This document shows, piece by piece, positions 49,927 to 56,284 of a stretch of 64,000 nucleotides of DNA. The notes below the pieces were generated by a model. That model saw only the letters and a program-made list of their open reading frames with translations. It made no database searches and was not told the origin of the DNA. Position 1 is the stretch's first letter; every line of letters starts with the position of its first letter. Source of the stretch: Coprococcus comes ATCC 27758 (GTDB lineage: Bacteria; Bacillota; Clostridia; Lachnospirales; Lachnospiraceae); contig NZ_CP102277.1 in NCBI RefSeq assembly GCF_025149785.1, forward strand, positions 2,232,001 to 2,296,000, read 5' to 3'. A program made the position numbers and the translations under genes.

Positions 49927-50028
49927 AGAATGCGCCGAGGCACGTTCTCGCGCCGAGCGCGTTGCTGAGCGCCAGTGGCGCTCGTTAAGCAACGACCGAA
50001 GCAGAGCGTAGACCGCTTGCGACATTCT
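49927..50028. repeat. GC-rich structured intergenic element
   Basis: About 100 bases far richer in GC than the flanks, bounded by AGAATG (49927-49932) and CATTCT (50023-50028). The core is a nested hairpin: CGTTGCT (49960-49966) pairs with AGCAACG (49988-49994) and GAGCGCC (49967-49973) with GGCGCTC (49977-49983). Resembles an interspersed repeat or a structured RNA. Confidence 0.5.
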
Positions 50029-51321: not shown

Positions 51322-52044
51322 TTAAGCATTTTCCAGGCTTTCCACAAATGCAAACAGCTCTTCCATCGATCCCTGGTAATCGCTTTCGATTGGAAGATCC
51401 TTTTTATTTTCCTTCGTATCTGTAACAAGGAATGTCTTTACGCCGAGTTTCCGAATTGCAAGATCCTCTTCCACGTCATTTCCTACCATCAGACACTCTT
51501 CCGGTCTAAGATGAAACTGTTCAAGAATTGTTCGGTAATAGTCCACATTTGGCTTGCAGTAACAATTATCCTCATAAGTTGTGATCAGCTCAAAATCCTC
51601 TGCATCCAGTCCCGCCCATTTGATCCGGTTCATCGTTGCCACCTTTGGAAATACCGGATTGGTTGCAAGGTAGGTGCAGATTCCTTTTTCCTTTGCCTTT
51701 TTCACAACCTTGTCCGACAGACTGTTTGGCTGCGTCACCGCAATTGCCTGGTTAAATTCATTTGCATAGAAATCAAGGGCAATCCGTTCGGAATTCTCCG
51801 AATCCGTCGGAAGCAGTTCGTCCATATACTGCCAGAATGCTTCCCGGTTGGTACAACTTCCGTCATTATTCACCATCGCTCCATAGCCCTTCCACACGGA
51901 TGCGATAAATGCTTTCGGATCAAAGGAAATCCCCTCGGATATATATTTTTTTGCCAGAAGCGGCATATAAAAGGTAACAAATTCGTCCTGGTTCATCGGA
52001 AGCAGCGTTCCGTCAAGATCAAATAAAATATGTCGAATGTGCAT
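51322..52044 (-). CDS. HAD-superfamily hydrolase
   Basis: 240 residues. Nucleophile motif FDLDGTLL with D9 and D11; motif II about LATNP; C-terminal motif YYRTILEQFHLRPEECLMVGNDVEEDLAIRKLG with the acidic pair. A helical cap lies at residues 20-100. Phosphatase with unknown substrate. Its ATG overlaps the TAA of the DUF1847 gene by one base (TAATG), so expression is coupled to it. Confidence 0.88.
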   Translation of the reverse strand: MHIRHILFDLDGTLLPMNQDEFVTFYMPLLAKKYISEGISFDPKAFIASVWKGYGAMVNNDGSCTNREAFWQYMDELLPTDSENSERIALDFYANEFNQAIAVTQPNSLSDKVVKKAKEKGICTYLATNPVFPKVATMNRIKWAGLDAEDFELITTYEDNCYCKPNVDYYRTILEQFHLRPEECLMVGNDVEEDLAIRKLGVKTFLVTDTKENKKDLPIESDYQGSMEELFAFVESLENA

Positions 52045-52709
52045 TATTCTTCCTCCAGATTCAGATGATGTAACTTTTTATAATAAGAGTCCAGCGTATA
52101 CAAAGCAGCCACCGGATTATTTCCAAGCACCCGATCCTTTACAACCAGCGTTGTACTCGGCGCCTCGGCATATTTGTAAAAGAGGCTGTCATGTCCCACG
52201 CAAAGTCCCATCACGATATTGATGTCCGTCTTCTCTTTGTTCAGCATCTGCGCCTGCAGGATTGGGTTACACATATGAACTCCGACCTCCTCGCAGCGTT
52301 CCGGAATGCCGACCTCGGTCTTTGGAACTTCTCCGATCTTACAGCCCACACCGTACACTTCAAAGCCGTATTCTCTCAAAAGTCCTGCCAGCAGGTGGCT
52401 TTCCTTTAAGAGTCCCACACAGCTTGCAATTCCGATCTTCTTGGCACCCAGTTTTTTTGCCCAGCGGATCGTCTCCTCCACACGGGTTGCCTGGCAGTAA
52501 AAATCGTGCTCAATCTCGGCACTTGCACGCATGATCTTCAGATCTTTTTCATCTCCCAGATAGGTATCAAGCGCCATCTGCCGGTCTTTCAAGTCCATAT
52601 TATGTGACACGCAAAATCCAGGATATGGCTTATGATTCTCTATATTCTGCTTTACATTACATTTCTTGACATTGCAATCTATACATGACAACTTTTTTGT
52701 TTCTTCCAC
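52044..52709 (-). CDS. DUF1847 cysteine-rich metal-binding protein
   Basis: 221 residues from a GTG start at 52709, nine bases after AGGAGG. Cys-rich N-terminus (C9, C12, C17, C33) then a conserved core with GIASCVGLLKESHLLAGLLREYGFEVYGVGCKIGEVPK and IVMGLCVGHDSLFYKYAEAPSTTLVVKDRVLG. The family is named metal-binding because of these cysteines; the function is unknown. It uses the shared promoter module at 52739. Confidence 0.88.
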   Translation of the reverse strand: MEETKKLSCIDCNVKKCNVKQNIENHKPYPGFCVSHNMDLKDRQMALDTYLGDEKDLKIMRASAEIEHDFYCQATRVEETIRWAKKLGAKKIGIASCVGLLKESHLLAGLLREYGFEVYGVGCKIGEVPKTEVGIPERCEEVGVHMCNPILQAQMLNKEKTDINIVMGLCVGHDSLFYKYAEAPSTTLVVKDRVLGNNPVAALYTLDSYYKKLHHLNLEEE

Positions 52710-52738
52710 TTTTTTCTGCCTCCTCTTGATATACAGAT

Positions 52739-52770
52739 AAGGATAACTTGTATTTTCGGGAAATGCAAGT
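52739..52770 (-). promoter_or_regulatory. Shared promoter module A (DUF1847-HAD operon)
   Basis: On the - strand TTGCAT-N17-TATCCT (complements 52764-52769 and 52741-52746). The spacer carries AATACAAGT and, with the -35, makes an imperfect dyad CTTGCATTT / AAATACAAG. 29 of 32 bases are identical to module B at 54809-54840. Confidence 0.7.
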
Positions 52771-52880
52771 TAAAATACCTCTGCTTTACCAGTCCCTCTG
52801 AAGAAAGACTAACCACCACCGTTATGATAGCACCCATGCTTTGATTATATCAGCCGTGAAATTTCACCACAGTAAATTTA

Positions 52881-53516
52881 TCAGTTGGATTCCAACAAAC
52901 TCTTATCAATAATCTGGAAATTTGCCCGGTGTATGTACAACGCTTTCCCATCGATCATCAACTTCGTAAATTTCGGCAGATCATCCGGGATTTCCCAGTA
53001 CACATCTTCTCCGCTATACGCTACGATTGGCTGTCCAAGCTGGGATTTGATAACAACCACTCTGGCTTTTCCAAACATATTTTTATACTTATTCAGGACA
53101 CCTGCGATCGCAGTATTGTCTGTAATCTTACCGCTTGCATTGCTTTCAATATCCTCCTGCGTAAAATCCACATCCGCTTTCAACGCGTCCTGCGCAAAAA
53201 TACAGGTATCACCACAACTCTCGATTTCCTTTCCATCGATTGTAATCGTAATGACAGAGGAAAGCTCATATCCCGTGATAACATTACCGTCTGAATCATA
53301 GCTTGAAGTTTCCACTGCATTTCCCTGCACATTGATCTTGTCTCCTGTAGTTGTCATTACACGATTCCCGTAATTATCATAGGTCGTGATCGTGTACGAA
53401 TTCCCCACTAATTTTCCTGTAATATCGTTCAATTTGGAGCTGAGCATACTGCATCCCGCAAGCGCTATAGTCATGACTGCGCATACTGCTGCCATTGCAA
53501 ATCTTTTCTTTTTCAT
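52881..53516 (-). CDS. Lipoprotein of unknown function
   Basis: 211 residues. Lipobox IALAGC with C22. The mature part is beta-rich: GNSYTITTYDNYGNRVMTTTGDKINVQ..., then VITGYELSSVITITIDGKEIESCGDT and a C-terminal WEIPDDLPKFTKLMIDGKALYIHRANFQIID. It follows the 405-residue membrane protein after 47 bases, so it probably belongs to the same transcript. It may belong to a DUF-type Gram-positive lipoprotein family, but I cannot name it surely. Confidence 0.75.
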   Translation of the reverse strand: MKKKRFAMAAVCAVMTIALAGCSMLSSKLNDITGKLVGNSYTITTYDNYGNRVMTTTGDKINVQGNAVETSSYDSDGNVITGYELSSVITITIDGKEIESCGDTCIFAQDALKADVDFTQEDIESNASGKITDNTAIAGVLNKYKNMFGKARVVVIKSQLGQPIVAYSGEDVYWEIPDDLPKFTKLMIDGKALYIHRANFQIIDKSLLESN

Positions 53517-53563
53517 AAATTTTCTCCTTTGTCCTTTCGCAGAATCATCTTTTTGCCATTACC

Positions 53564-54781
53564 TTACTTTATCTTAAGTATCCCTGTATAATTATGTAAA
53601 ATGTCGTCCGGCTGCATCGCATCCGATACCATGGCAATCTCAAGCTTATACTCTGTATCCTCATCACCAATTGATCCCTGAACCGGCACATACCGGTCAA
53701 AGCAGACATTTTGTTTCTTTTTTGTTGTGACAATTATCGTGACATAATCCTCCGTTGTCTGAAGCTTGTAGTAGATATCTTCTTCCGGGAATGTATCCCT
53801 TGCCCGGTCGATCATGTCCGCATAATTGTAATATTCCGATTTGTCACCAAGACCTGTCGTTTTTTCATCGATCGCATTCTGCAGCTTTTCTAAAACTGCT
53901 GCTGTCCTTGCCTCATTTTGCCTGCACTCGATCGCTGACGTAATATTCACATACAGTGAAATAACAAGTATAATCCCAGCCATAACCGCTATTGATGTTA
54001 GCCAGACCATGGCAAGCTTTGATTTCTTTTTCTTTACTTCCTCTTTTGTGAGATGGATATTCGAAAATTCGTTTACAAAATATATCGGATTTTCATTTCC
54101 GTAAGCAATAATCGCATCGACCGTGTCATAACCTCTTTCAACACTGTATTTCTGCCATACACCATATTCTGAGTAAAACTTTTCCAGCCTGTAATAGAAC
54201 GATAAAAACCATCCTGTATATCGTTTTCTCCGGATAAAAAACGCACAAATCCCGCCAATAAGAATTGCAAAATATCCGACTCCCATTACGCCATAATAAA
54301 GACCTTCTATTTTCGATACCTGCTTTTCCGGCAATACCGCAAGTAACTGATATTCCCCATTCTTTTCTTTTTCCCAGTATGTCTGAAACCGACTGCCATA
54401 AGAATATTTGATCGGATCCATTCCAAGTTCTGCAAGTGTGTAACTTACATGCTCACCTTTATTCGGATTTTTCAAGCGCAATGACTCGCCATCCTCCTGC
54501 ACAACTCCAATTACGCTCTTTTTTTCTATGAGAGAATATCCTGTTACACTTTCAAACGGATCATACTGACCGGCTCCGAAAAACCATACCAGTGAAAGGA
54601 TCATATAAACGACAAAGAGTTTTATGAGTTCTTTCCACACGTTATATTTTAAAGACCTTTCTATGATCTCTTTTTCATGTGCCGGGATTCCGGGCAGTGT
54701 GCTGTACCAGGAAGCGAACCGCTCTCTTTTGGTTTCCTCATCCATTGCTTTTCTTAGATTCATTGCTGTTGCAAGCTGCAT
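53564..54781 (-). CDS. Three-helix membrane protein of unknown function
   Basis: 405 residues from the ATG at 54781, eight bases after AAGGAGG. Membrane helices about 52-70, 162-183 and 256-280. The N-terminal 50 residues are charged and cytosolic; an external loop (71-160) reads VIGVVQEDGESLRLKNPNKGEHVSYTLAELGMD; a C-terminal extracellular or cytosolic domain (285-405) is mixed. Family not recognised. Its gene is first in a pair with the lipoprotein and uses promoter module B. Confidence 0.75.
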   Translation of the reverse strand: MQLATAMNLRKAMDEETKRERFASWYSTLPGIPAHEKEIIERSLKYNVWKELIKLFVVYMILSLVWFFGAGQYDPFESVTGYSLIEKKSVIGVVQEDGESLRLKNPNKGEHVSYTLAELGMDPIKYSYGSRFQTYWEKEKNGEYQLLAVLPEKQVSKIEGLYYGVMGVGYFAILIGGICAFFIRRKRYTGWFLSFYYRLEKFYSEYGVWQKYSVERGYDTVDAIIAYGNENPIYFVNEFSNIHLTKEEVKKKKSKLAMVWLTSIAVMAGIILVISLYVNITSAIECRQNEARTAAVLEKLQNAIDEKTTGLGDKSEYYNYADMIDRARDTFPEEDIYYKLQTTEDYVTIIVTTKKKQNVCFDRYVPVQGSIGDEDTEYKLEIAMVSDAMQPDDILHNYTGILKIK

Positions 54782-54808
54782 CTTCTTTTCCTCCTTTGTA
54801 CATCTTCT

Positions 54809-54840
54809 TAAGGATAACTTGTATTTTTTTGAAATGCAAG
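54809..54840 (-). promoter_or_regulatory. Shared promoter module B (405-aa protein operon)
   Basis: On the - strand TTGCAT-N17-TATCCT (complements 54834-54839 and 54811-54816), same dyad as module A. Confidence 0.7.
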
Positions 54841-54915
54841 CGTCCTCTGGTATTCTTCGAAAATCAACAAAATCATACGAACTACTTCATTTTCAAAAAA
54901 TTCCTTTATATTTTT

Positions 54916-54944
54916 TTGACATCATTTTATTTTTGTGTTAAAAT
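54916..54944 (+). promoter_or_regulatory. Strong promoter of the ABC importer cluster
   Basis: Perfect TTGACA (54916-54921), 17-base spacer with an extended TG, TAAAAT (54939-54944). Confidence 0.75.
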
Positions 54945-55018
54945 TCAGATACTAAGACATATACATCATTTAAATTCAATCAATTGTACTTTGTAATTTT
55001 TAAGGAGGGATCATACCA

Positions 55019-56284
55019 ATGTTCAATTTTAAATTTTATCTTCTTCCACTCCTCATCCTTTCAATTGGATTATCCGGATGTACAAAGCTAAATAAAGATG
55101 TCTCCAAAACACTCTCTATTGTTATAGAACCTGCTTTTAAGGAGCAGGTTCTTGATGCTGTAAAATATGCCACATCCAAAAATAACTCTCTGGAATTTGA
55201 AATTAAAATATTATCTCCTGATCCTGATAAAAGATCTGCAGAAATTCAGAAACTCCGTACACAGATCATGTCTGGAAAAGGTCCTGACTTATATCTTGTT
55301 AACTGTTCCACCGATGGAGCTGCGCAGATGAACGAACCTCTTTTTGAAAATCCTTATAAGGCAATGCAAAGTGGTGTATTCGCCTCATTGGATAAATATA
55401 TGAAAAAAGATTCTTATTGGCAAAAGGAAAACTATAATCCGTCTTTTCTTCTCCCCGGTCAATATCAGGAAAGACAATATATTCTTCCTCTTTCCTGCCA
55501 CTATAATATGTTAATCTCCGATACTGTACTTGATTATACACAGGAAAATGATACCTTAGAAGATTGGATTTCAAATATAAAAAGTTCTTCTGACCACGCT
55601 CTGAAAAATGCACTATTCGAATTAGATAATATCAGTGGTAACTGGTTTCAACCTGCTGCGGATTACAATTCCGGTCAGATTTTCTTTGATAAGGAAAAGT
55701 GGAGTAATTTCGCATTAGAATACTTATTATTTAAACAAGATTATTTAGAAAATGAAAAGACAAATAATACTGATACTAGCTCTTCGCATATTTTAATCTC
55801 ATCTTTGGATGACATAAACGAACACACAACGCAAATAGACATAATCCCTGATATTCAGGGAAAAAAAATGGCTGCCATTCGTTGCTTTGGTGCTGTAAGT
55901 ATGGCATCTGATTATAAAGAAGAAGCTTATCACTTCTTAATGTATTTTTTAAATAACGTAATTCAGGAATCAACTAGTACTAATGGAATGTCACTAAGCG
56001 CAAATGGTGTCCTTGGAACAGATTATCCGGTACAAGTATCTGCCATCCGTACAAAACTGTCCTTCTTAGATCAGTCAAAACAGGATTTAGCTATAAAAGC
56101 ATTTCAGTCCTTAGAAGGAGCATATTTTCCGACAGAAGTTGAACATTTTATTTATGAAGAGATTATAGAAAATAGTAGTTTATTATATGGTCCGCAAACT
56201 GATTTTAAAAAGATATGGCAAGATAAGCTTTCGGCTTTAGCAGACAAAGCATGGAATGATTATCATACACAGGTGACAGAATAG
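55019..56284 (+). CDS. ABC transporter extracellular solute-binding lipoprotein
   Basis: 421 residues. Signal peptide and LSGC with C21. The mature part has the family 1 solute-binding layout: SIVIEPAFKEQVLDAVKYA, then IMSGKGPDLYLVN near residue 95, and a C-terminal KIWQDKLSALADKAWNDY. Binds a sugar or other solute outside. It is followed by two permeases. Codon use and composition are AT-rich, unlike neighbours. Confidence 0.88.
   Translation: MFNFKFYLLPLLILSIGLSGCTKLNKDVSKTLSIVIEPAFKEQVLDAVKYATSKNNSLEFEIKILSPDPDKRSAEIQKLRTQIMSGKGPDLYLVNCSTDGAAQMNEPLFENPYKAMQSGVFASLDKYMKKDSYWQKENYNPSFLLPGQYQERQYILPLSCHYNMLISDTVLDYTQENDTLEDWISNIKSSSDHALKNALFELDNISGNWFQPAADYNSGQIFFDKEKWSNFALEYLLFKQDYLENEKTNNTDTSSSHILISSLDDINEHTTQIDIIPDIQGKKMAAIRCFGAVSMASDYKEEAYHFLMYFLNNVIQESTSTNGMSLSANGVLGTDYPVQVSAIRTKLSFLDQSKQDLAIKAFQSLEGAYFPTEVEHFIYEEIIENSSLLYGPQTDFKKIWQDKLSALADKAWNDYHTQVTE

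Follow-up and report, generated by a model that had tools for sequence, protein, structure and literature searches.

Two nearly identical 32-bp putative promoter modules lie 2.07 kb apart in the window, the 64,000-nucleotide stretch of the Coprococcus comes ATCC 27758 genome analyzed here, one 5′ of a DUF1847-HAD operon and the other 5′ of an operon for a membrane protein and a DUF5052 lipoprotein (Table 1). Comparison with the closest relative, Coprococcus comes MSK.16.63, makes it very probable that the two modules are paralogous promoters, which arose by duplication of an operon and then by a deletion through which the membrane-protein operon captured the second promoter copy. As read from these alignments, the case is one of promoter rewiring and not evidence of a wider regulon.

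Two Putative Promoter Modules and the Genes behind Them

The identity of 29 of 32 positions given in the preliminary description holds for the two spans in Table 1, although its start for the first copy, 52739, was one base out of register. The three mismatches are adjacent (CGG versus TTT on the + strand) and all fall within the dyad centre, in agreement with the earlier statement that the spacer is shared except for three bases. Identity ends sharply at both edges of the 32 bp, and the flanking sequences align only at Shine-Dalgarno-like purines. Chance sharing had been discounted from the start, and any third sequence in the window indeed matches either copy at no more than 21–23/32, far below 29/32. 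An imperfect dyad was confirmed, with 8/9 arm pairs in each copy; it has the form CTTGCATTT-N5-AAATACAAG in both modules. The − strand sequence of each copy is CTTGCATTTC-N3-AAAATACAAGTTATCCTTA, 5′ of a Shine-Dalgarno sequence and start codon. The hexamers proposed earlier, TTGCAT-17-TATCCT, were found on the − strand ~30 bp upstream of the DUF1847 and membrane gene starts. Judged by eye they are weak (TTGCAT 3/6, TATCCT 4/6), and a consensus scan for near-consensus sigma-A −35 and −10 elements does not detect them; the 17-bp spacing fits.

The genes behind the modules are those named in the preliminary description, a DUF1847-HAD pair and a membrane protein plus lipoprotein, all assigned by Pfam except the membrane protein, for which a Pfam search with its 405 aa gives no family. 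NCBIfam offers nothing more specific than the HAD family. The DUF1847 gene is 97% identical to its MSK.16.63 counterpart, and the membrane gene was present, among 299 family genomes, only in the window's genome and MSK.16.63. A short literature search on DUF1847, DUF5052, and the dyad half-site found nothing useful.

Table 1. Positions in the window of the promoter modules, the genes behind them, and the putative deletion junction
Feature	Position	Strand	Evidence
HAD1, HAD-family hydrolase gene; overlaps DUF1847 stop; paralog of lost HAD2	51322..52044	−	PF00702/PF13419
DUF1847 protein gene, Cys-rich; GTG start at 52709	52044..52709	−	PF08901, E 1.6e-61
Promoter module copy 1 (dyad, TTGCAT, TATCCT), 5′ of DUF1847-HAD	52738..52769	−	1 mismatch to search pattern in MSK.16.63
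DUF5052 lipoprotein gene, probably second in the putatively captured operon	52881..53516	−	PF16475, E 1.5e-81
Membrane protein gene, 405 aa; ATG at 54781; putatively captured promoter copy 2	53564..54781	−	Alignment with MSK.16.63
Putative deletion junction, 6-bp ATGCAG (start codon and Gln codon) common to both gene starts	54776..54781	−	BLAST blocks, alignment
Promoter module copy 2, apparently the original HAD2 promoter, now 5′ of membrane gene	54809..54840	−	Sequence alignment with MSK.16.63

The Module Occurs in Two of the Family Genomes Searched

With up to 3 mismatches allowed, the module core has two sites in the whole 3.37-Mb genome, in direct orientation. It has no match in six other genomes of the genus. 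The longer form that includes the −10 element was searched for in 397 family genomes and occurs twice in MSK.16.63 (G002) and at 0 sites in the other 395. The motif is therefore nearly restricted to this one genome, the outcome that the preliminary description had set against its own proposal, with the qualification that MSK.16.63 also has two sites. The dyad is absent within 250 bp upstream of 32 other DUF1847 genes from the family and beyond, and no HAD1-like partner was present near those genes in the stretches examined. The proposal of a new small regulon is thus weak: neither several upstream sites nor conservation before orthologs across species beyond MSK.16.63, as expected of a multi-gene regulon, was found, so the candidate regulon in the window's genome is these two promoters only, and a wider regulon is not supported.

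A loose palindrome search allowing 3 mismatches returned 19 further sites in the window's genome and 25 in MSK.16.63, nearly all of them, apart from the promoter pairs, at 2–3 mismatches; the 26 that were examined (13 per genome) all overlap ORFs ≥100 aa long and were rejected as regulon members. A near-perfect dyad with one mismatch, CTTGTATTTTACCTAATTACAAG, found in MSK.16.63 (contig C119, L043 1502-1524) and absent from the window's genome, was likewise rejected as a site, as it falls within a small ORF adjacent to a DUF4160 gene.

The two copies, so close together and in direct orientation, could also be fragments of a mobile repeat that lie upstream of genes by chance, but we regard this as extremely unlikely, since the 3.37 Mb hold these two copies and no dispersed ones, both stand at promoter distance from start codons, and one is linked to a duplicated gene.

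A Probable Start-Codon Deletion Joined the Second Copy to the Membrane Gene

Comparison of the genes downstream, which the preliminary description had suggested as a check, placed DUF1847-HAD behind copy 1, whereas copy 2, which stands before the membrane gene in the window, precedes HAD2, a truncated paralog of HAD1, in MSK.16.63 (L042 10153-10184). The alternative of a duplicated cassette, also raised in that description, is thereby borne out, since the second copy in a close relative still precedes a HAD paralog. About 69 codons of HAD2 remain, beyond which it passes into five degenerate 53-nt tandem repeats (L042 9657-9921; 60–74% identity to the first repeat). The MSK.16.63 membrane gene starts at L042 8636, 1,489 bp from the HAD2 start, behind its own consensus-like promoter, TTGAAA-18-TATAAT, with TATAAT at L042 8677-8682 on the − strand; the relative therefore has the undeleted layout together with the membrane gene's own promoter (L042 8634-10125).

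Positions 52794-54793 of the window align to the membrane/DUF5052 block of MSK.16.63 at 89% identity and positions 54773-55038 to its HAD2 promoter region at 98%, the two BLAST blocks meeting at 54773-54793, at ATGCAG. At this junction ~1,489 bp of MSK.16.63 are absent, and the missing ~1.49 kb was not found elsewhere in the window's genome except for HAD1, the best match, and one weak 80-bp match. The homology between HAD1 and HAD2 (82.4% nucleotide identity across 222 bp) continues for ~13 bp 5′ of the start codon, to L042 10138, and because it extends upstream of the start, the leader that now precedes the membrane gene was HAD2's. In the window's genome the HAD2 promoter, leader, Shine-Dalgarno sequence, and start codon thus appear fused to the membrane ORF. 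In this comparison only the window's genome has the module paired with the membrane/lipoprotein operon, a pairing that would be a product of the deletion. For the direction of the indel we rely on the leader homology, since none of the other family genomes sampled has the membrane gene and could serve as an outgroup, and the intermediate layout is seen in one relative, MSK.16.63.

Were the window layout ancestral instead, a HAD2 fragment and other pieces would have been inserted between promoter and membrane gene in MSK.16.63, where the segment does consist of debris: the truncated HAD2, a short unassigned ORF, and the five degenerate repeats. We consider such an insertion quite unlikely, because it would need to have hit the start codon precisely, because the HAD1-HAD2 homology covers the Shine-Dalgarno leader used in the window's genome, and because the MSK.16.63 membrane gene has a consensus-like promoter. 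Promoter capture by deletion resembles known gene fusions at short direct repeats, in which an ORF exchanges its promoter for that of a neighbor, together with the neighbor's leader and start codon, across a microhomology a few bases long, here the 6 bp of ATGCAG. There is no difference in kind; the present example lies between two close gut relatives and involves a module conserved since an earlier operon duplication.

Other differences between the two genomes lie nearby. Beside promoter copy 1 is a second indel (window 52793/52794 versus L042 4250-6648), where MSK.16.63 has ~2.4 kb extra, encoding a DUF1295 protein, a small membrane protein, and a Rce1-type CAAX protease, which are absent at this place in the window. 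One edge of that segment (L042 6596-6647) has a 52-bp inverted match, at 83%, to an intergenic stretch of the window near a D-Ala ligase gene (49962-50014), possibly a dispersed palindromic repeat. At L042 10340-10815, MSK.16.63 carries a 106-aa secreted Cys-rich ORF between the promoter of an ABC transporter and its lipoprotein gene, and before this ORF stands a remnant of the beginning of the lipoprotein frame.

Duplication Probably Preceded the Split of the Two Lineages

HAD2 is 88% identical to HAD1, and either is 68–72% identical to the next HAD relative (HAD2 versus the HAD of genome G006, 68%). Because HAD2 is closer to HAD1 than to the G006 protein, the duplication probably arose in this lineage. 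Third codon positions differ at 29/240 between HAD1 of the window and of MSK.16.63, compared with 28/70 between HAD1 and HAD2, so the duplication probably predates the split of the two lineages. The history that these comparisons suggest would begin in the shared ancestor, where a promoter-DUF1847-HAD unit, or just its promoter and HAD portions, would have been duplicated nearby in the same orientation; we infer that promoter and gene were duplicated jointly, since the promoter flanks do not align. The second copy would then have lost DUF1847, leaving promoter-HAD2, and HAD2 would have decayed in MSK.16.63 to a 5′ fragment. In the window lineage, a ~1.49-kb deletion between ATGCAG at the membrane gene start and ATGCAG at the HAD2 start would have removed HAD2 together with the membrane gene's own promoter, so that the HAD2 promoter would now drive the membrane-protein/DUF5052 operon and bring it under the control of the candidate regulator of DUF1847-HAD.

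Constraint on the Module and a Candidate Operator

Divergence between HAD1 and HAD2 is 28/70 (40%) at third positions and 12/23 (52%) at fourfold sites, compared with 3/32 in the module. At a silent divergence of 40–52%, the binomial probability of ≤3 changes in 32 bp is 1.4e-4 to 4e-7, and that for the 17-bp spacer alone is 0.046 to 0.004, but these tests are rough, as the sites were picked for their similarity and one arm position has been lost in MSK.16.63 copy 1. Slower change than at the silent sites of the duplicated gene indicates that the module has probably been constrained since the duplication and is functional beyond its hexamers. The lost dyad position in MSK.16.63 site 1 (AAATACCAG) argues against strict symmetry.

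The module would most plausibly work as a weak sigma-A promoter, with a putative operator for a dimeric activator or repressor lying across its spacer and −35, and a dimeric regulator may bind it. Like TetR- and MarR-type operators placed over a sigma-A −35 and spacer, it has a dyad of 9-bp arms between hexamers at 17-bp spacing; it differs in its weak hexamers. To our knowledge the dyad fits no established regulator box, nor did a short literature search point to one; the CodY, Rex, TnrA, BirA, and ArgR boxes fit poorly. A reading as an RNA hairpin was also rejected: the fold of the transcribed strand reaches no more than −3.4 to −3.9 kcal/mol and contains a mismatch, and there is no T run.

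Examination of neighboring genes revealed no regulator; a local regulator acting on these two promoters is possible. Conserved dyad arms around a variable centre and a module slower than silent sites would also suit a genuine regulon, with one trans-acting factor and operators gained or retained separately by two unrelated operons. This is unlikely, given that the genome holds no further sites, that the second target differs in the nearest relative, and that DUF1847 genes elsewhere lack the dyad. Paralogy of the two promoters allows a different and more tentative suggestion, which we put forward with some doubt: a lineage-specific dimeric regulator of DUF1847-HAD may have gained the membrane/DUF5052 operon as a target, in which case a two-operon regulon would have arisen recently in the window's genome, with MSK.16.63 preserving the unrewired state.

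Operon duplication followed by a deletion at start codons can make unrelated operons look co-regulated even though no regulon has been selected for, and two similar promoters in one neighborhood are poor ground for calling a regulon. The window's genome and MSK.16.63 form a clean pair for asking whether the rewiring changed the expression of an uncharacterized membrane operon in a common gut bacterium.
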